The notes beneath the pieces are model-generated. The model worked only from the letters and a program-made list of their open reading frames with translations. It did not search any database and was not told the DNA's origin. 64,000 nt of DNA from Lachnospiraceae bacterium P6B14 (lineage in GTDB: Bacteria > Bacillota > Clostridia > Lachnospirales > Lachnospiraceae). Of this stretch, positions 14,109 to 28,569 are shown piece after piece; position 1 is the first letter of the stretch; the number at the start of each line of letters is the position of its first letter. Made by a program: the position numbers and the translations under genes. The DNA is taken from contig JHWZ01000005.1 of the NCBI GenBank assembly GCA_000687695.1, positions 1 through 64,000 of the forward strand, written 5' to 3'.

Positions 14109-14399
14109 GTGGTTGAGGCTTACTGGCAGATTGGTAAATCTATTATTGAAGAGCAAGGTGGTGAAGATCGTGCTGAATACGGAACTGGTCTGATAAAGGA
14201 ACTATCTGCACAGATGACAAAGGACTTCGGTAAGGGCTGTACTGTTGCAAATCTAAAGAACATGAGGCAGTTTTATCAGACCTTTCCAAATGGCTACGCG
14301 CTGCGTAGCGAATTGAGTTGGACACATTATCGGCTGTTGATGAGAGTTGAGAACGATACCGCAAGGCAGTTTTATCTTGATGAAGCTGAAATAAAATGA
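14109..14399 (+). pseudogene. Internally deleted DUF1016 (YhcG-type) nuclease gene
   Basis: Nearly identical (two differences noticed) to the N-terminal part of the complete gene at 21114-22157, from VVEAYWQIGKSI to RQFYLDEA. The sequence then jumps directly to the last codons and the downstream flank of the full copy (GAAATAAAA...TGATGAGTGATG). The whole C-terminal PD-(D/E)XK nuclease half is missing, as is the first ~25 codons. The product, if made, would be only the DUF1016 N-terminal helical domain. Confidence 0.85.
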
Positions 14400-15764: not shown

Positions 15765-16721
15765 GTGATGACGAATTATATGCTTCCCTGTACATGGAAG
15801 AGCAATCTCGGATATAAAGGATTTGCGAGTAGAGTTTACATGGATCTATTATCGGATTGGGAAAAACAAAACGAGAAATACCTTTCAGATAATGGTATTA
15901 TGAGAAAAGATTCTAATACTGCAAGTTTCGATTTCTTCAGATTCCAAAGAAGAATAATTCTTCCAAAGCCGCGCAAGATTAAGGTGGCAAGGGAGTTTAG
16001 TTGTCCGAAAGACTATGAAAGTACTCTTGAAAGATTGAAAAGAAGAATCAGAAATGGCGATAACATTAATCATTATTTGTCCAGAAGAATTCTAGATTTG
16101 AATAAAAATGATGGCTTGTTAGATGATTGGGGAATATATCATTTTCATCTATCGGATACAGTTTTAAAGAATGATCCTAGATTTATGGATCGTTCCGATT
16201 GGTTGCTTATGGCGTGGGTTACCGATGAATGCGTTTATTTTATAAAGTGTGTGGAACATGAATCTCCGACAGAACAGGTGTGGGTGAATGATAAATGGCT
16301 GGAAATCGTTCGCGATAATTGGCCTGAACTGATAGAATTCTCTAAGGTTTCTGATGCGGTAATGGAGAATGATATCCTTCCAATGGAAAGGTATAAAGCA
16401 AGAAAAAAAGGCATTTTGATGCCTACGAAATTGTCGGACGGTACTGTTCTCACTTTTCCGGGTGGAGGGTATAATTCGTGTGGATCATCTTTGATGGCGT
16501 GTAAGGCCTATAACCATTATTATAATAATTTGGCAGAGGTTGAAGTATTATTGAGGGAGTATTTCCCATCGATCATGATTGATTCGTCCGGAATAGACTA
16601 TCCTTGCTATTGTTTTAAACTGATTAAATATGAGGATAATATTTGGATCTTCGAGAAGAACATGAAGATGTTTGTCTGCGTGTATCAGGACGATGGAAAA
16701 TGGGCGTTGGATTGTTATTAG
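15765..16721 (+). CDS. Uncharacterised 318-aa protein
   Basis: I do not recognise this protein. It has no signal peptide or membrane segment, is rich in aromatic and charged residues, and has a Cys-containing C-terminal part (GGGYNSCGSSLMACKAY, IDYPCYCFKLIKYED). The middle stretch (DWLLMAWVTDECVYFIKCVE) looks like a beta-rich globular domain. It follows the FtsK-like gene by 91 bp and begins with two possible starts (ATG ACG...; GGAGG lies eight bases before). A functional link with the ATPase is possible but unproven. Confidence 0.6.
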   Translation: MMTNYMLPCTWKSNLGYKGFASRVYMDLLSDWEKQNEKYLSDNGIMRKDSNTASFDFFRFQRRIILPKPRKIKVAREFSCPKDYESTLERLKRRIRNGDNINHYLSRRILDLNKNDGLLDDWGIYHFHLSDTVLKNDPRFMDRSDWLLMAWVTDECVYFIKCVEHESPTEQVWVNDKWLEIVRDNWPELIEFSKVSDAVMENDILPMERYKARKKGILMPTKLSDGTVLTFPGGGYNSCGSSLMACKAYNHYYNNLAEVEVLLREYFPSIMIDSSGIDYPCYCFKLIKYEDNIWIFEKNMKMFVCVYQDDGKWALDCY

Positions 16722-16901: not shown

Positions 16902-17122
16902 GCGAGCTGGATGCTTTGTTTGAGTCGCTCGCGATGAATAAGTCGAATAATTATAAGGATGCGGCGAAGAAGGATTATGAGGATATCTGTGCGAAGCTTG
17001 AGGGGTATCGGGCGAGCGGGGAGTATTCGGAGAAGGTGCTGAAGCCGTATGTGGAGAGGATGATGGAGCTGGCGCCGGTGATGGAGAATTATAATCATCA
17101 GAATAATGTGAGGAGTTACTGA
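16880..17122 (+). CDS. Small helical protein of unknown function
   Basis: An 80-aa, mainly helical, charged protein (ISELDALFESLAMNKSNNYK, then AAKKDYEDICAKLEGY). The ribosome site GGAGG lies inside the zinc-ribbon gene. Its last ~12 codons and stop region (MENYNHQNNVRS) recur at 18268-18300 and 19898-19941 as detached fragments, so it has been a recombination donor. I recognise no family. Confidence 0.6.
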   Translation: MFGKKRISELDALFESLAMNKSNNYKDAAKKDYEDICAKLEGYRASGEYSEKVLKPYVERMMELAPVMENYNHQNNVRSY

Positions 17123-17146
17123 TGGAGAGTGTGTCGGGGTATTTTT

Positions 17147-17172
17147 ATAGGGCGTGATACGCCCTATTTTTG
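17147..17172 (+). terminator. Terminator upstream of Rpn gene copy 1
   Basis: Stem ATAGGGCG / CGCCCTAT with loop TGATA followed by TTTT. It separates the preceding cassette genes from the Rpn promoter and is repeated at 27363-27385. Confidence 0.7.
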
Positions 17173-17207
17173 TGTCTAAATGGTAGGATTCGATGTCTAA
17201 ATGGCTA

Positions 17208-17236
17208 TTGACTTAGTATTCCATTGGTGTTATCAT
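17208..17236 (+). promoter_or_regulatory. Promoter of Rpn gene copy 1
   Basis: TTGACT, 17-bp spacer, TATCAT, about 40 bp before the gene. The identical promoter precedes copy 2. Confidence 0.65.
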
Positions 17237-17275
17237 TTTATATAGCAACAAAGACCCTCCGGTAAGGAGGGAAAT

Positions 17276-18217
17276 ATGTATAATTTTAATGAGTTATCTT
17301 CACGTATCGATTCCTACGATGTACGTGCGAGGTACGATGCAGCTTGTAAACGCCTTTTGGCAAACCGGCAGATTTTAGCCAGGATTCTGAAAGCCTGCGT
17401 GTCGGAGTTTTTTGACTGTGATGTCGGGGATATCGAGGAAAAGTACATCGAGGGTACACCCGAGATTTCCGTGATTCCGGTTCATCAGGATGTAGAGTTT
17501 ATCGAGGGGATGAATACGGAGGATGCTTCTGAGTCGGAGGGAACCGTCTACTATGATATTCGCTTTTATGCGATATCTCCGGTGGAGGGTGGTTTGATTC
17601 GGCTTATTATCAATGTTGAAGCGCAGAACTCTTTCAATCCCGGATATCCTATCGTCAAGCGCGGGATTTATTATGGGAGCCGTATGATCTCGGCTCAGCG
17701 AGGGACGGTGTTTGACGGGCAGCATTACGAAAAGATCGAGAAGGTGTACAGCATTTGGATATGCCCTGATCCGCCTGCGAAAAGGAGAAACTCGATATGC
17801 GAGTATTCGTTTGACGAGAAGGTGCATGTTGGGTCCGGCGGTGAGAGCAAGGCGAACTATGATCTGATGACCGTGATGATGGTTTGCTTGGGTGGACCGG
17901 ATGATGAGAATTATTCAGGCGTGATCAAGATGCTTGATGTGCTTCTTTCGGATAGGATTGAACCGGGTGAGAAGAAAAAGGTTTTAAATGATGAGTTTGA
18001 TATTCGCATGACGAGTGATTTGGATGAGGAGGCGATGGATATGTGTAATCTTTCACAGGGGGTAATTGATCGTGCAACAATTGAGCATGTAATAAGTATT
18101 CATAAGAAAACCGGGAAAAGCTTAGAGGAGTGTATGGATTTGATAGGAGTTTCTGAGGAAATGTATGAGATGTATACAAGAAAGATCGAGGAGAAGATGG
18201 GGCTTCAGCCGGTATGA
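17276..18217 (+). CDS. Rpn-family PD-(D/E)XK nuclease/putative transposase
   Basis: A 313-aa protein of the Rpn group (recombination-promoting nucleases related to the transposase_31/PD-(D/E)XK transposase families). The nuclease core is at residues about 90-130: the strand with D in YYDIRFYAIS, then LIRLIINVEAQNSF with the E-x-Q pair, and YPIVKRGIYYGSRMIS after it. Residues 255-313 form a separate C-terminal region with an internal ribosome site and ATG. It has its own promoter, an AAGGAGGG ribosome site, and terminators on both sides, so it is a self-contained unit. A second copy with the same flanks lies 10 kb away. Rpn proteins of E. coli are DNA nucleases that raise RecA-independent recombination and can act in phage defence. 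Confidence 0.82.
   Translation: MYNFNELSSRIDSYDVRARYDAACKRLLANRQILARILKACVSEFFDCDVGDIEEKYIEGTPEISVIPVHQDVEFIEGMNTEDASESEGTVYYDIRFYAISPVEGGLIRLIINVEAQNSFNPGYPIVKRGIYYGSRMISAQRGTVFDGQHYEKIEKVYSIWICPDPPAKRRNSICEYSFDEKVHVGSGGESKANYDLMTVMMVCLGGPDDENYSGVIKMLDVLLSDRIEPGEKKKVLNDEFDIRMTSDLDEEAMDMCNLSQGVIDRATIEHVISIHKKTGKSLEECMDLIGVSEEMYEMYTRKIEEKMGLQPV
18041..18217 (+). CDS. Possible intragenic Rpn short product (antitoxin-like)
   Basis: Inside the Rpn gene, a GAGGAGG sequence (18026-18032) lies eight bases before an in-frame ATG. This would yield a 58-aa protein equal to the Rpn C-terminus (MCNLSQGVIDRATIEHVISI and onward). In E. coli, Rpn toxins are restrained by a short in-frame product made from an internal start, so this is the expected position for one. 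The same site is kept in copy 2 at 28243-28260. Seen: the site and frame. Inferred: translation and antitoxin role. Confidence 0.45.
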   Translation: MCNLSQGVIDRATIEHVISIHKKTGKSLEECMDLIGVSEEMYEMYTRKIEEKMGLQPV

Positions 18218-18233
18218 TTTAGTGTTTGATGGA

Positions 18234-18268
18234 TAGCAGGCAGTTCTGGTGGGCTGCTTGCTATTTTT
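18234..18268 (+). terminator. Terminator after Rpn copy 1
   Basis: Imperfect stem TAGCAGGCAG / CTGCTTGCTA followed by TTTTT. The same hairpin follows Rpn copy 2 (28535-28569), and a relative lies at 37231-37260. Confidence 0.7.
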
Positions 18269-18363
18269 ATAATCATCAGAATAATGTGAGGAGTTTTTGA
18301 TGGAGAAGGAGTATAATCAGTATCAGATGCGGTTGCAGTAGTGCGTACGCAGGAGGCGTAAAT
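18268..18363 (+). repeat. Patch of gene fragments after Rpn copy 1
   Basis: Bases 18268-18300 repeat the 3' end of the helical gene at 16880-17122 (AATCATCAGAATAATG...). They are followed by a piece like the 3' part of the EF-hand ORF at 24686-24862 (GGAGTATAATCAGTATC) and then GTACGCAGGAGGCGTAAAT, which supplies the ribosome site of the next gene. The whole patch is repeated at 19898-20007. Confidence 0.75.
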
Positions 18364-18807: not shown

Positions 18808-18905
18808 GAGGATCGGAACATTTTTCTGAAGGTGCTTGACAAGTTCTTTGATGGAAAGAAGGATACGAGGACGTTGGCGATATTGAGGCAGATTGGGGGA
18901 GTGAC
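18808..18905 (+). pseudogene. DUF1810 3' fragment carrying the next gene's ribosome site
   Basis: Identical to the end of the complete DUF1810 gene (25218-25315): DRNIFLKVLDKFFDGKKDTR and onward. It lacks the 5' two thirds. The final codons contain GGGGGAGTGAC, which is the ribosome-binding site of the membrane-protein gene that follows. Confidence 0.85.
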
Positions 18906-19250
18906 ATGTTTGGGTTGATTATTACCGGTGTGATCTTCGGTGTATGCGCTCTGATCATGTTCGGGATAGGTATATCGCAGTTTCGTAGTTCTGAGCCGGT
19001 CGGTTTTTATACGGGGATAAAACCTCCGACGCGGGATGAAATATCGGACGTGGAAGCATGGAACAAGAAACATGCGATCATGTGGATTGTTTATGGGTGC
19101 TGTATTGTTATTTCATGGATGATTGGCTTCTTTATCGGAAGCGGCAACATTCTCGTGGTGGTGCCATACTGTGTCGGACTGATTGTACCGATCATCGTTA
19201 TGGTTGTGTGTCACCATAGGCTTGTAAAGAAGTATTATGTGAAAGGGTAG
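18906..19250 (+). CDS. Small membrane protein, SdpI-like signature, copy 1
   Basis: A 114-aa protein with three predicted membrane segments (GLIITGVIFGVCALIMFGI; MWIVYGCCIVISWMIGFFIG; ILVVVPYCVGLIVPIIVMVV). Between them lies GFYTGIKPP...EAWNKKH, which recalls the conserved loop of SdpI-type immunity proteins. That assignment is tentative. Its first ~200 bases and all of the preceding DUF1810 tail are identical to copy 2 at 25316-25657. From position 19110 onward the two differ at roughly one base in five, a sharp mosaic boundary. Confidence 0.7.
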   Translation: MFGLIITGVIFGVCALIMFGIGISQFRSSEPVGFYTGIKPPTRDEISDVEAWNKKHAIMWIVYGCCIVISWMIGFFIGSGNILVVVPYCVGLIVPIIVMVVCHHRLVKKYYVKG

Positions 19251-19846: not shown

Positions 19847-20093
19847 GAGGTGTGCGGTGTCTGTATATCAGGCGTTCCGGGATGTGAACACGGCCGGTGA
19901 TGGAGAATTATAATCATCAGAATAATGTGAGGAGTTTTTGATGGAGAAGGAGTATAATCAGTATCAGATGCGGTTGCAGTAGTGCGTACGCAGGAGGCGT
20001 AAATATGGATATCAGATCGGTGCTTATTAAAGATACATCGATGGGAAGAAGGATACGAGGACGCTGGCGATACTGAGGCAGATTGGAGAGTGA
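19847..20093 (+). repeat. Chimeric stretch of four gene fragments
   Basis: In order: a piece of the C_GCAxxG-family gene (frame SVYQAFRDVNTAGD, compare 26166-26235); the 3' end of the helical gene 16880-17122; the EF-hand-like fragment and leader also seen at 18300-18363; the 5' end of Cys-rich paralogue 1 (MDIRSVLIKDT); and the last ~54 bases of DUF1810. No complete gene is present. The end GGAGAGTGAC provides the ribosome site of the GNAT gene that follows. Confidence 0.8.
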
Positions 20094-20841: not shown

Positions 20842-21081
20842 GTGTATCAGGCGTTTAGAGATGTAAATACGACTGGTGAATACTATGTAGGAAGGGAACT
20901 TCCACCTGGAGAGTACAGGATATATGCTGATGAAGGCGAAGAATCCGGCTTTTTTGCCATTCTGAAGATGATGGCAGATGGAAAACGAAGTATTGTGACC
21001 AATGGTAGTTTTTCAAATCAAGCCTATGTAGAAGTTAAGGATGGACAGCTACTGGAGCTAAGGCGCTGTACACTGAAATGA
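20842..21081 (+). CDS. Small beta-rich domain fused to a C_GCAxxG fragment
   Basis: A 79-codon frame. The first ~12 residues (VYQAFRDVNTTG) come from the C_GCAxxG-family gene; the rest (EYYVGRELPPGEYRIYADEG, then SGFFAILKMM and NQAYVEVKDGQLLELRRC) belongs to a small beta-rich domain common in Firmicutes, often found in secreted proteins. Here the normal N-terminus and any signal peptide are missing. The only start is a GTG with a poor ribosome site, so it may not be expressed. Confidence 0.5.
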   Translation: MYQAFRDVNTTGEYYVGRELPPGEYRIYADEGEESGFFAILKMMADGKRSIVTNGSFSNQAYVEVKDGQLLELRRCTLK

Positions 21082-21113
21082 TTGCCAACTATTGGTTGAT
21101 AAGGAGTCAGGAT

Positions 21114-22157
21114 ATGGATAGAGAATTCTATGAAGGAATCAAGGAAATACTCGATTCTGCAAGAAATAAAGTATATCAGACAGCCAATTTCGCGATGGTT
21201 GAGGCTTACTGGCAGATTGGTAAATCTATTATTGAAGAGCAAGGTGGTGAAGATCGTGCTGAATACGGAACCGGTCTGATAAAGGAACTATCTGCACAGA
21301 TGACAAAGGACTTCGGTAAGGGCTTTACTGTTGCAAATCTAAAGAACATGAGGCAGTTTTATCAGACCTTTCCAAATGGCTACGCGCTGCGTAGCGAATT
21401 GAGTTGGACACATTATCGGCTGTTGATGAGAGTTGAGAACGATACCGCAAGGCAGTTTTATCTTGATGAAGCGGTGAAGTCGCAATGGAGTACCAGGCAG
21501 TTGGAAAGACAGATTAATTCATTTTTTTACGAGCGATTGTTATCAAGTAAGGATAGGGAAGCGGTGTCACAGGAAATTCAGACATTAGAACCTTCAAAAA
21601 GCCCGGAGGACATCATACGTGATCCATATGTGTTGGAGTTTCTCGGGCTTACTCCCAATGATGATTTTTATGAGAGTGATTTGGAGCAGGCACTGATTAC
21701 TCATTTACAGAAATTTCTTCTTGAGCTTGGTAGAGGTTTCTCATTTGTGGCGAGGCAGAAACGAATAACATTTGATGGACGACATTTTAGAATTGATCTT
21801 GTTTTTTACAACTATATTTTGAAATGCTTTGTCCTGATTGATTTGAAGATAGGAGATTTGACACATCAGGATCTTGGTCAAATGCAGATGTATGTGCATT
21901 ACTATGAGCGTGAGCTTATGAACGAGGGAGATAATCCTCCGATTGGTATTGTACTATGTGCTGACAAGAGCGATGCTGTGGTACGATATACGCTTCCTGA
22001 TGATGAGACACAGGTGTTTGCGTCAAAATACAAACTGTATCTTCCTACAGAGGAAGAACTGCTGAAAGAACTGAAACAAGAATACCAGGCGTTGGAGGCT
22101 GAAAAACAGGGTGATCCCGCACTCTTAGAATCTGAAATAAAACAAAATGATGAGTGA
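21114..22157 (+). CDS. DUF1016/YhcG-family PD-(D/E)XK nuclease
   Basis: A 347-aa protein with the two-part architecture of the YhcG family. The N-terminal DUF1016 helical domain is at about 15-150 (AYWQIGKSIIEEQGGEDRAE, LRSELSWTHYRLLMRVE). The C-terminal PD-(D/E)XK nuclease domain is at about 175-320 (PYVLEFLGL, RQKRITFDGRHFRIDLVFY, FVLIDLKIGDLTH), where D of RIDLVFY and D-x-K of IDLKIG form the active site. Such proteins occur with restriction systems and mobile DNA. The start follows AAGGAG. An internally deleted copy lies at 14109-14399. Confidence 0.9.
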   Translation: MDREFYEGIKEILDSARNKVYQTANFAMVEAYWQIGKSIIEEQGGEDRAEYGTGLIKELSAQMTKDFGKGFTVANLKNMRQFYQTFPNGYALRSELSWTHYRLLMRVENDTARQFYLDEAVKSQWSTRQLERQINSFFYERLLSSKDREAVSQEIQTLEPSKSPEDIIRDPYVLEFLGLTPNDDFYESDLEQALITHLQKFLLELGRGFSFVARQKRITFDGRHFRIDLVFYNYILKCFVLIDLKIGDLTHQDLGQMQMYVHYYERELMNEGDNPPIGIVLCADKSDAVVRYTLPDDETQVFASKYKLYLPTEEELLKELKQEYQALEAEKQGDPALLESEIKQNDE

Positions 22158-24866: not shown

Positions 24867-25328
24867 TTGAGTGAGGATAGGTTCAATCTGGAGCGGTTTG
24901 TCCGCCGACAGGAATCAGATTATGACAGGGCGTATAAAGAGTTGTCAGAGGAGAGTAAAAGATCTCACTGGATGTGGTGGATTTTTCCACAGATAACGGG
25001 ACTTGGGATGACTTCGACTTCACAGGAGTATTCGATAAAGAGTCTGGCAGAGGCAAAGGCATACCTGGAGCATCCTGTACTCGGTAAGAATATCCGTGAG
25101 ATATCGAAGTTACTGACGACGATACACAGCAGCAATGCATCCATCGTGTTTGGGTATCCGGATGACATGAAGCTGAGGTCATCGATGACGCTCTTTGCGG
25201 AAGCGGCGGAGAGTGACGAGGATCGGAACATTTTTCTGAAGGTGCTTGACAAGTTCTTTGATGGAAAGAAGGATACGAGGACGTTGGCGATATTGAGGCA
25301 GATTGGGGGAGTGACATGTTTGGGTTGA
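24867..25328 (+). CDS. DUF1810 family protein
   Basis: The complete member of the gene whose 3' end is scattered through the array: 153 aa with RSHWMWWIFPQITGLGMTS, AKAYLEHPVLGKNIREIS and PDDMKLRSSMTLF, all diagnostic for DUF1810. It starts with TTG after GGAGG. Family function is unknown. Compared with the other copies, one extra G near the 3' end changes the normal ending (QIGE-stop) so that the frame continues 13 nt into the membrane-protein gene. Confidence 0.88.
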   Translation: MSEDRFNLERFVRRQESDYDRAYKELSEESKRSHWMWWIFPQITGLGMTSTSQEYSIKSLAEAKAYLEHPVLGKNIREISKLLTTIHSSNASIVFGYPDDMKLRSSMTLFAEAAESDEDRNIFLKVLDKFFDGKKDTRTLAILRQIGGVTCLG

Positions 25329-25657
25329 TTATTACCGGTGTGATCTTCGGTGTATGCGCTCTGATCATGTTCGGGATAGGTATATCGCAGTTTCGTAGTT
25401 CTGAGCCGGTCGGTTTTTATACGGGGATAAAACCTCCGACGCGGGATGAAATATCGGACGTGGAAGCATGGAACAAGAAACATGCGATCATGTGGATTGT
25501 TTATGGGTGCTGTATTGTTGTCTCATGGGTGATTGGTTTCTTTATTGGGAGCGATGATATTCTTGTGGTGGTGCCGTATTGTATTGGATTGATAGTACCA
25601 ATCATCGTGATGGTTATTTGTCATCACAAGTTGGTAAAGAGGTATTTTAAGGATTGA
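25316..25657 (+). CDS. Small membrane protein, SdpI-like signature, copy 2
   Basis: A 113-aa paralogue of 18906-19250 with the same three membrane segments and GFYTGIKPP loop. DNA from 25218 to 25519 is identical to 18808-19109; the remaining 3' part differs at many, mostly silent, positions. The start lies inside the DUF1810 reading frame and uses its GGGGGAG. Confidence 0.7.
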   Translation: MFGLIITGVIFGVCALIMFGIGISQFRSSEPVGFYTGIKPPTRDEISDVEAWNKKHAIMWIVYGCCIVVSWVIGFFIGSDDILVVVPYCIGLIVPIIVMVICHHKLVKRYFKD

Positions 25658-27332: not shown

Positions 27333-27362
27333 TTAGTGAGGGCGTGTGTCGGGGTATTTTTG

Positions 27363-27385
27363 TAGGGCGTGATACGCCCTATTTT
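27363..27385 (+). terminator. Terminator upstream of Rpn copy 2
   Basis: Stem TAGGGCG / CGCCCTA with loop TGATA followed by TTTTT, as before copy 1. Confidence 0.7.
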
Positions 27386-27422
27386 TGTGTCTAAATGGTA
27401 GGATTCGATGTCTAAATGGCTA

Positions 27423-27451
27423 TTGACTTAGTATTCCATTGGTGTTATCAT
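27423..27451 (+). promoter_or_regulatory. Promoter of Rpn copy 2
   Basis: TTGACT, 17-bp spacer, TATCAT, identical to the promoter at 17208-17236. Confidence 0.65.
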
Positions 27452-28257
27452 TTTATATAGCAACAAAGACCCTCCGGTAAGGAGGGAAATATGTATAACA
27501 GAAATGAGTTATCTTCACGTATCGATTCCTATGATGTGCGTGCTAGATACGATGCTGCTTGTAAACGCCTTTTGGCAAACCGGCAGATTTTAGCCAGGAT
27601 ACTCAAAGCCTGTGTGTCGGAGTTTTTTGACTGCGACGTAGGGGATATCGAGGAAAAGTACATCGAGGGTACGCCTGAGATTTCCGTGATTCCGGTTCAT
27701 CAGGATGCAGAGTTTATCGAAGGGATGAATACGGAGGATGCTTCTGAGTCGGAGGGAACCGTCTACTATGATATTCGTTTATTCGCAGGATATCTCCGGT
27801 GGAGGGTGGTTTGATTCGGCTTATTATCAATGTTGAAGCGCAGAACTCTTTTAATCCCGGGTATCCGATCGTTAAGCGCGGGATTTATTATGGGAGCCGT
27901 ATGATCTCGGCTCAACGAGGGACGGTGTTTGACGGGCAGCACTACGAAAAGATTGAGAAGGTGTACAGCATTTGGATATGCCCTGATCCGCCGGCGAAAA
28001 GGAGAAACTCGATATGCGAGTACTCGTTTGCTGAGAAGGTGCATGTTGGGTCCAGCGGTGAGAGCAAGGCAAACTATGATCTGATGACTGTGATGATGGT
28101 TTGCTTGGGTGGACCGGATGAAGACAATTATTCAGGAGTGATCAAGATGCTTGATGTGCTTCTTTCGGATAGGATTGAACCGGGTGAGAAGAAAAAGGTT
28201 TTAAATGATGAGTTTGATATTCGCATGACGAGTGATTTGGATGAGGAGGCGATGGAT

Positions 28258-28518
28258 ATGTGTAATCTTTCAGAGGGTGTGTTTAATCGGGGGTTTAATA
28301 GCGGTTTTAATGATGGATTCAATGATGGATTCAATGATGGATTCAATGATGGGTTCAATGATGGAACGGATAGTGCGGTTGTATCTGTTCTGACCAGTAT
28401 GCGGCAGAAAACAGACAAGAGTATAGAGGAATGTTTGTATCTGATGGGAATACCTGAGGAAAAGTATGAGACCTATACCAGGATGATCGAGGAAAAGATG
28501 GGGCTTCAGCCGGTATGA
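28258..28518 (+). CDS. Possible intact intragenic short product of the broken Rpn copy
   Basis: GAGGAGG at 28243-28249 lies eight bases before this in-frame ATG. The 86-aa product (MCNLSEGVFNRGFNSGFNDG and onward) consists of the variable repeats and the conserved end KMGLQPV. If Rpn proteins here work as in E. coli, this would be an antitoxin-like protein kept while the toxin is lost. Translation is inferred. Confidence 0.45.
   Translation: MCNLSEGVFNRGFNSGFNDGFNDGFNDGFNDGFNDGTDSAVVSVLTSMRQKTDKSIEECLYLMGIPEEKYETYTRMIEEKMGLQPV
28291..28362 (+). repeat. 12-bp tandem repeat in Rpn copy 2
   Basis: Six units of the pattern GGNTTYAAYGAT, coding GFNS then five GFND. Copy 1 has no such repeat at the same place. 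In-frame 12-bp units can expand or contract by slippage without changing frame. Confidence 0.9.
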
Positions 28519-28534
28519 TTTAGTGTTTGATGGA

Positions 28535-28569
28535 TAGCAGGCAGTTCTGGAGGGCTGCTTGCTATTTTT
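28535..28569 (+). terminator. Terminator after Rpn copy 2
   Basis: Imperfect stem TAGCAGGCAG / CTGCTTGCTA followed by TTTTT; same as after copy 1. Its right half and the next ~20 bases (GATGAATGGAGGTATG) recur at 29225-29260 before the cupin fragment. Confidence 0.7.

Follow-up and report, generated by a model that had tools for sequence, protein, structure and literature searches.

The gene at 17276-18217 in the window (the whole analysed stretch of 64,000 nt from Lachnospiraceae bacterium P6B14) is very probably an RpnL/RpnS gene-within-gene toxin-antitoxin unit, to judge from its sequence and that of its homologues. Its reading frame, taken from the list of open reading frames and the sequence, codes for 313 aa. 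As the sequence-only reading had noted, a GAGGAGG motif stands 8 nt before an in-frame ATG, and inspection of the sequence confirms both the spacing and the 58-aa product. This ATG is codon 256 of the long protein (M256), and the C-terminal protein that would start there is MCNLSQGVIDRATIEHVISIHKKTGKSLEECMDLIGVSEEMYEMYTRKIEEKMGLQPV, beginning with MCNLS. The same reading had proposed the design of an Rpn toxin with an intragenic antitoxin. At the level of sequence the design is matched by the internal site, by start-codon conservation and a synonymous codon bias at that site in homologues, by the catalytic residues, by stand-alone small genes, by tetrapeptide repeats and by swapping of C-termini. 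From these features we infer production of the small protein, toxicity of the long form and a block of one by the other.

Table 1 Features of the two rpn units, in window positions.
Feature	Position	Strand	Basis
Whole rpn unit (promoter, leader, gene, terminator)	17129-18268	+	Alignment of both copies; repeat families D4, D7
Terminator-like hairpin 5' of the promoter	17147-17167	+	Hairpin scan; found in both copies, travels with the unit
Sigma-70-like promoter TTGACT-17-TATCAT with TG	17208-17236	+	Consensus match only, 10/12
36-nt 5' leader, same sequence as that of the comM-like gene in this genome	17240-17275	+	
Hairpin CCCTCC-GGTAA-GGAGGG pairing the Shine-Dalgarno sequence of the long form	17255-17271	+	Shine-Dalgarno unpaired probability 0.00, 121-nt fold
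rpnL, 313-aa Rpn-type PD-(D/E)XK nuclease (predicted catalytic D21/D94/E115/Q117/R129)	17276-18217	+	Motif comparison with RpnA
135-nt block, 100% identical in both copies, including the internal Shine-Dalgarno sequence and ATG	17921-18055	+	Copy alignment
Internal Shine-Dalgarno sequence GAGGAGG	18026-18032	+	Sequence; selection seen in homologues
rpnS, internal-start ATG, putative 58-aa C-terminal protein (MCNLS...)	18041-18217	+	Homologue start codons; three helices predicted
Variable C-terminal segment, unlike the second copy; 3' limit approximate	18056-18165	+	Copy alignment
Inverted repeat (18233-18264) and T-run, presumed terminator	18233-18268	+	Read from sequence; kept in second copy
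Second rpn unit copy	27344-28569	+	Own-genome search, copy alignment, repeat families D4, D7
Truncated rpnL2 frame, 107 aa, frameshifted near 27778-27790	27491-27814	+	ORF reading, copy alignment
Internal Shine-Dalgarno sequence, copy 2	28243-28249	+	
rpnS2, intact 86-aa small protein, internal start 28258	28258-28518	+	
Tetrapeptide repeats FNRG, FNSG, 5x FNDG, from 8 residues after the internal Met	28282-28365	+	

Promoter, gene and terminators had been described as a self-contained unit. An alignment and a repeat search show a second copy of the whole unit, which the sequence-only reading does not mention, with the same promoter, leader and terminator in both. The promoter is a consensus match only, and the scan that found it returned four promoter-like sites against 3.0 expected, a count not above that in shuffled sequence. 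The downstream inverted repeat has a 10-nt loop; the loop limit of the hairpin scan was 8 nt. The terminator-like element upstream (17147-17213) is a dispersed repeat: some twelve partial copies, 78-100% identical, are scattered over the rest of the genome. The unit of the window gene is flanked by a 39-nt direct repeat (17090-17128 and 18268-18306, 37/39 identical), and the surrounding sequence also exists in uninterrupted form at 19893-20044. On inspection, the second copy shows no such flanking repeat.

The internal ATG is among the strongest of its kind in the window. Three of the 448 in-frame internal ATGs, counted on both strands in reading frames of at least 150 codons, reach its pairing score: 18041 itself, the internal start of copy 2, and 26827, by its look the genuine start codon of a different gene. 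The alternative in-frame ATG, at 18035, follows the Shine-Dalgarno (SD) sequence at a distance of 2 nt and scores weakly (-7.7). In the window gene alone, the SD energy at 18041 (-15.3) is 1.9 below that of synonymous shuffles (Z -0.6), and the internal site of this one gene could be due to chance.

The signal is very strong in the homologues, where codon usage indicates selection for the internal start among divergent Rpn proteins of the Lachnospiraceae type. A first set of homologues was taken from 140 loci, which cover part of the family-genome matches described below and contain 143 distinct homologous ORFs; the alignment was built from the 127 that reach 180 aa or more. All 125 sequences with a letter at the M256 column, including the two copies of the window, carry a start codon (114 ATG, 8 GTG and 3 TTG); two further rows are gapped. 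The 11 residues other than Met are thus encoded exclusively by start codons, the eight Val by GTG and the three Leu by TTG, while in these genes GTG makes up 32% of Val codons and TTG 20% of Leu codons. The joint chance of this outcome is about 9e-07 if the cases are independent. Because several of the Val cases stem from similar genes, we also counted them as four lineages, a number of our choosing, which gives about 8e-05. In a second set of 84 sequences from named genomes and viral contigs, partly overlapping the first, the column again holds start codons throughout (82 ATG and 2 GTG), including both residues other than Met. Homologues without the internal site had been named as evidence against the proposal; the start codon is kept in 125/125 and 84/84 sequences of these overlapping sets.

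Conservation extends to the codons upstream of the start. We compared the anti-SD pairing before every alignment column with that of synonymous-codon shuffles within each gene for 124 genes (one was dropped for an N). At M256 pairing is stronger than in the shuffles by a mean of -4.0 kcal/mol (t -17.5), and it is better than the shuffles in 118 of the 124 genes. The four strongest columns of the alignment are 255-258, all preceded by the same upstream stretch (t -16.0 to -20.2), with column 257 at the top. For the 87 representatives under 70% identity, t is -14.5 at M256; outside columns 255-258 none of 319 columns goes beyond -5.7, and the gene's own start, at about -5.3, is weaker than these four. 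M256 has t -9.4 in another 33 representatives, drawn from named genomes and viral contigs, and ranks fourth of 321 columns, behind 257, 258 and 255. For a positive control we used E. coli rpnA: its start at M244, proven by mutation in Zhong et al. 2023 (PMC10327210), comes out on top of 22 internal start codons when scanned in this way. The conservation of the internal SD sequence and ATG that had been suggested as a check is thus found in the homologues, both as a retained start codon and as a bias of synonymous codons toward SD pairing. A smaller, unexplained excess of SD pairing over shuffles occurs at column 263 in both sets (t -5.7 for the 87 and -7.5 for the 33 representatives).

The same data bear on two explanations that do without internal translation. 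The SD-like sequence might be a by-product of a conserved protein sequence (E-E or E-V before MCNLS), with the Met kept for folding. The Met does belong to the conserved MCNLS motif, and the Z score of the window gene alone would fit such an origin, but shuffles that hold the protein fixed leave the excess at M256 at the t values given for the 87 and the 33 representatives, and on this ground a by-product was rejected. Moreover, the upstream amino acids vary while pairing and spacing stay: in the 87 representatives the internal SD sequence is encoded by 69 different tetrapeptides in all three phases, at a distance from the start of 8-11 nt in 86 (8 nt in 60) and of 1 nt in one. With the use of start codons for Val and Leu at the Met position also against it, we regard this explanation as very improbable. 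Least probable, in our assessment, is that the conserved nucleotides form a recombination or nuclease target site for the exchange of C-termini and not a ribosome site. The two copies in the window are 100% identical over the 135-nt block and divergent directly after it, as such a site might require, but what is conserved among homologues is anti-SD pairing at a near-fixed spacing, achieved by many sequences and phases and not by one motif, and start-codon use is not predicted by a target site. The diversity of sequences and phases disfavours the recombination-site explanation.

The long protein carries the PD-(D/E)XK active-site pattern of D, D, E-x-Q and a downstream R. Its residues D21, D94, E115, Q117 and R129 are invariant in an alignment of 36 sequences (A3); in the ungapped rows of the 128-row alignment they are kept in 119/121, 123/123, 126/127, 127/127 and 126/127 sequences, respectively. 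By motif and spacing, not by alignment, they correspond to D11, D63, E82, Q84 and R94 of RpnA, positions at which changes were tested by Kingston et al. 2017 (PMC5350276). Family profiles recognize the protein poorly. It matches PF12784 (PDDEXK_2) with E 6.8e-05 and 23.1 bits, below the curated cut-off of 27.4, and has no NCBIfam match. Of its aligned homologues, 35/52 match PF12784 and 23/52 TIGR01784 (Rpn family) at E up to 0.001. Standard profiles barely recognize these divergent Rpn proteins. PADLOC gave no match for the window rpn protein or for copy 2, and the three weak Rfam matches all lie far below gathering scores.

A scan of genome contigs with the window protein as single query returned no relative, while an alignment of closer sequences as query gave 341 matches; among the best 80 of these, the five top named relatives belong to Lachnospiraceae or Lachnoclostridium. 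Matches to rpn were found in 16 of 39 genomes of the genus and 117 of 397 of the family, with the window's own genome counted in both.

The structure model of the full-length protein (mean pLDDT 78.0) gives nothing but weak matches, with a best Foldseek E of 0.16 and VIA-align Z scores of 5.8 at most; among the top ones are many PD-(D/E)XK nucleases, for example EndoMS and the nuclease subunit of McrBC. A sequence search of solved structures returned no match for the window protein, and its full-length profile found one weak match, to a designed repeat. For the 58-aa protein, AlphaFold2 predicts helices at residues 4-24, 28-35 and 39-52 (mean pLDDT 79.9). Searched against solved structures, the small protein and its profile gave mainly weak matches, the best of them to designed repeat proteins, and the RpnA small-protein structure 7TH0 was absent among the listed matches of structure searches with the 58-aa model.

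The second copy of the unit repeats the internal start next to a damaged nuclease frame. The reading frame of its long ORF is lost at about 27778-27790, with a stop at 27814, and its small ORF is whole; the frameshift may be an assembly or sequencing error. Changes between the copies are largely synonymous, in 15 of 17 changed codons before the frameshift (95 colinear codons compared) and in 12 of 16 after it (161 compared). The copies part immediately after codon 5 of the small ORF and re-converge toward the terminator. Copy 2 carries tandem tetrapeptides in this part, which are absent from the window gene. The two units share the internal start but differ in their C-termini, and the nuclease gene of one is frameshifted, which makes them a natural pair for the study of antitoxin specificity and of solitary antitoxins.

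Small genes without a nuclease portion also occur in other genomes. From 244 loci, 16 short ORFs were picked by pattern. Nine of them, in seven loci (L008 and L230 with two each, L041, L047, L063, L220 and L225), are stand-alone small ORFs downstream of rpn; L008 belongs to the window's genus. Those in L017 and L025 have no rpn upstream within the locus, and five of the 16, none with a start codon at the motif, were judged to be chance matches. In eight of the nine downstream ORFs there is no in-frame ATG before the Met of MCNLS, and in six at most 10 codons precede it, with earlier GTG or TTG starts possible. The ORF in L225 has no obvious SD sequence, and one of the copies in L230 has a weak one.

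Repeats and exchange of the C-terminal part are widespread. Of 198 distinct homologous proteins, pooled from both sets, 110 have a C-terminal part with two or more tandem tetrapeptides, compared with a mean of 13.4 and a maximum of 22 in 100 shuffles, and for 96 of these 110 proteins the start of the longest run falls 8-20 residues past the Met. In 340 of 368 pairs with an N-domain identity from 85% to below 100%, the C-terminal part is less identical than the N-domain. Non-zero length differences between close pairs, which are not independent of one another, are multiples of 4 in 238 of 269 cases. Both the tetrapeptide repeats and the C-terminal variability match the description of Rpn by Zhong et al. 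2023 (PMC10327210).

Taken together with the E. coli precedent, these features suggest the following mechanism. One mRNA would yield two proteins: the full-length protein from ATG 17276, a predicted PD-(D/E)XK DNA nuclease, and a small protein from ATG 18041, where ribosomes would initiate by means of the strong GAGGAGG. The 58-aa product, a predicted three-helix protein identical to the C-terminal domain of the nuclease, would pair with its counterpart within the nuclease and hold the enzyme inactive as long as no trigger, probably phage infection, upsets the balance and releases it. The C-terminal domain differs between copies through swapping and four-residue repeats; in E. coli these set which small protein fits which nuclease (Zhong et al. 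2023, PMC10327210).

The internal start could also be real and the small protein a structural subunit or oligomerization partner of an Rpn complex. The precedent is the type I-D Cas10d/Cas11d pair, which, as cited in PMC10327210, likewise involves a small C-terminal protein made from an internal start; compared by description, Cas11d has a complementary role as a subunit and is not an antitoxin. We consider such a role improbable here. E. coli RpnS blocks growth inhibition, SOS induction and cleavage (Zhong et al. 2023, PMC10327210), and the small gene kept beside a frameshifted nuclease gene in copy 2 and the occurrence of solitary small genes would both fit an antitoxin better than a subunit.

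The toxin-antitoxin reading follows a system established in E. coli in a preprint (Zhong et al. 2023, PMC10327210), which agrees with the statement of the sequence-only reading that E. coli Rpn toxins are blocked by a short protein from an internal start. The window gene resembles E. coli RpnA in the D..D..ExQ..R pattern, in the SD sequence and in-frame ATG near the 3' end and in the small C-terminal protein of three helices, here predicted and reported for RpnAS in the same preprint; separate rpnS copies in some members and a variable C-terminus are further likenesses to E. coli Rpn. In contrast, sequence similarity to RpnA is very low, with a profile comparison aligning only the C-terminal third, and E. 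coli RpnA is without the MCNLS motif at the start of the small protein. An internal promoter for a short transcript is described for E. coli Rpn (PMC10327210), whereas our consensus scan found no plus-strand promoter between 17276 and 18041.

The suggestion that the design extends to a divergent clostridial Rpn gains support from sequence, but its novelty does not stand, because Zhong et al. 2023 (PMC10327210) already describe an RpnS from C. difficile rpn cloned in E. coli, which was lost on changing the ribosome-binding site and start codon. That gene, also a Firmicute Rpn with an RpnS, is likened to ours by description and not by sequence. To our knowledge, the codon-level selection in divergent gut Firmicutes, the natural experiment of two copies and the comM-like leader are new. 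Our literature searches, which left subscription papers mostly outside their coverage, found no earlier work on a recombination-promoting nuclease of Lachnospiraceae and, on internal starts and toxin-antitoxin systems, besides Zhong et al. only a restriction-modification review. Given the codon-level selection across divergent Rpn proteins, the mechanism known from E. coli is probably widespread among Firmicutes of the gut.

The long form of the window gene may be subject to a second control. The SD sequences of the two starts score equally (-15.3 each), and in 121-nt folds their probability of being unpaired is 0.00 at 17276 and 0.36 at 18041, with 0.63 at the internal start of copy 2. From the locking of the first SD sequence in a hairpin and the partial accessibility of the internal one we infer an excess of the small protein. 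Hiding of the long-form SD sequence is not supported as a rule for the family. Scoring was possible for 79 of the 87 representatives, their starts being picked by a script, and gave unpaired probabilities of 0.51 for the long and 0.56 for the inner SD sequence (p 0.10). In the same comparison the inner SD sequence is the stronger (-13.0 vs -11.5, p 0.001).

The leader that forms this hairpin is shared with a gene of the same genome that has Mg_chelatase and ChlI domains and that we take to be comM-like. ComM is a DNA-uptake helicase. In copy 2 the leader lies at 27455-27490. With as many as 3 mismatches allowed, a 27-nt leader pattern is present in 3 of 39 genomes of the genus, before the comM-like gene in all three (judged by near-identical N-terminal sequence in G018 and G025), and also before both rpn copies of the window; among 397 sampled genomes of the family it is found in one, the window's own. 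In G025, a sister genome, the leader also precedes a distant PDDEXK_2 gene (PF12784, E 9e-14), and upstream similarity ends with the leader. The leader-bearing loci beyond the window are L151/L245 and L247. It is conceivable, though rather doubtful, that in this small clade two brakes, the internal antitoxin and the SD-burying leader hairpin, would act on the toxic long form, and that nuclease output would follow the same post-transcriptional signal as DNA uptake, with release when foreign DNA enters. Since the leader is scarce and SD hiding is not a family rule, we treat shared control with the comM-like gene as a lead and not as a result; it is a testable lead on what releases RpnL.

The neighbourhood of the rpn unit fits a role in defence. 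The gene at 15765-16721, 0.4 kb upstream of the unit, matches the PADLOC anti-phage model PD-T4-7 (E 3.9e-41), and a YhcG/DUF1016 PD-(D/E)XK nuclease is encoded at 21078-22157, with a partial duplicate of its N-terminal part upstream at 14109-14399. Between 12000 and 31000 the sequence is a mosaic of duplicated segments, some of them 100% identical, as if gene modules had been copied repeatedly; for example, 18808-19107 equals 25218-25517, and 14110-14386 is 99% identical to 21196-21472.
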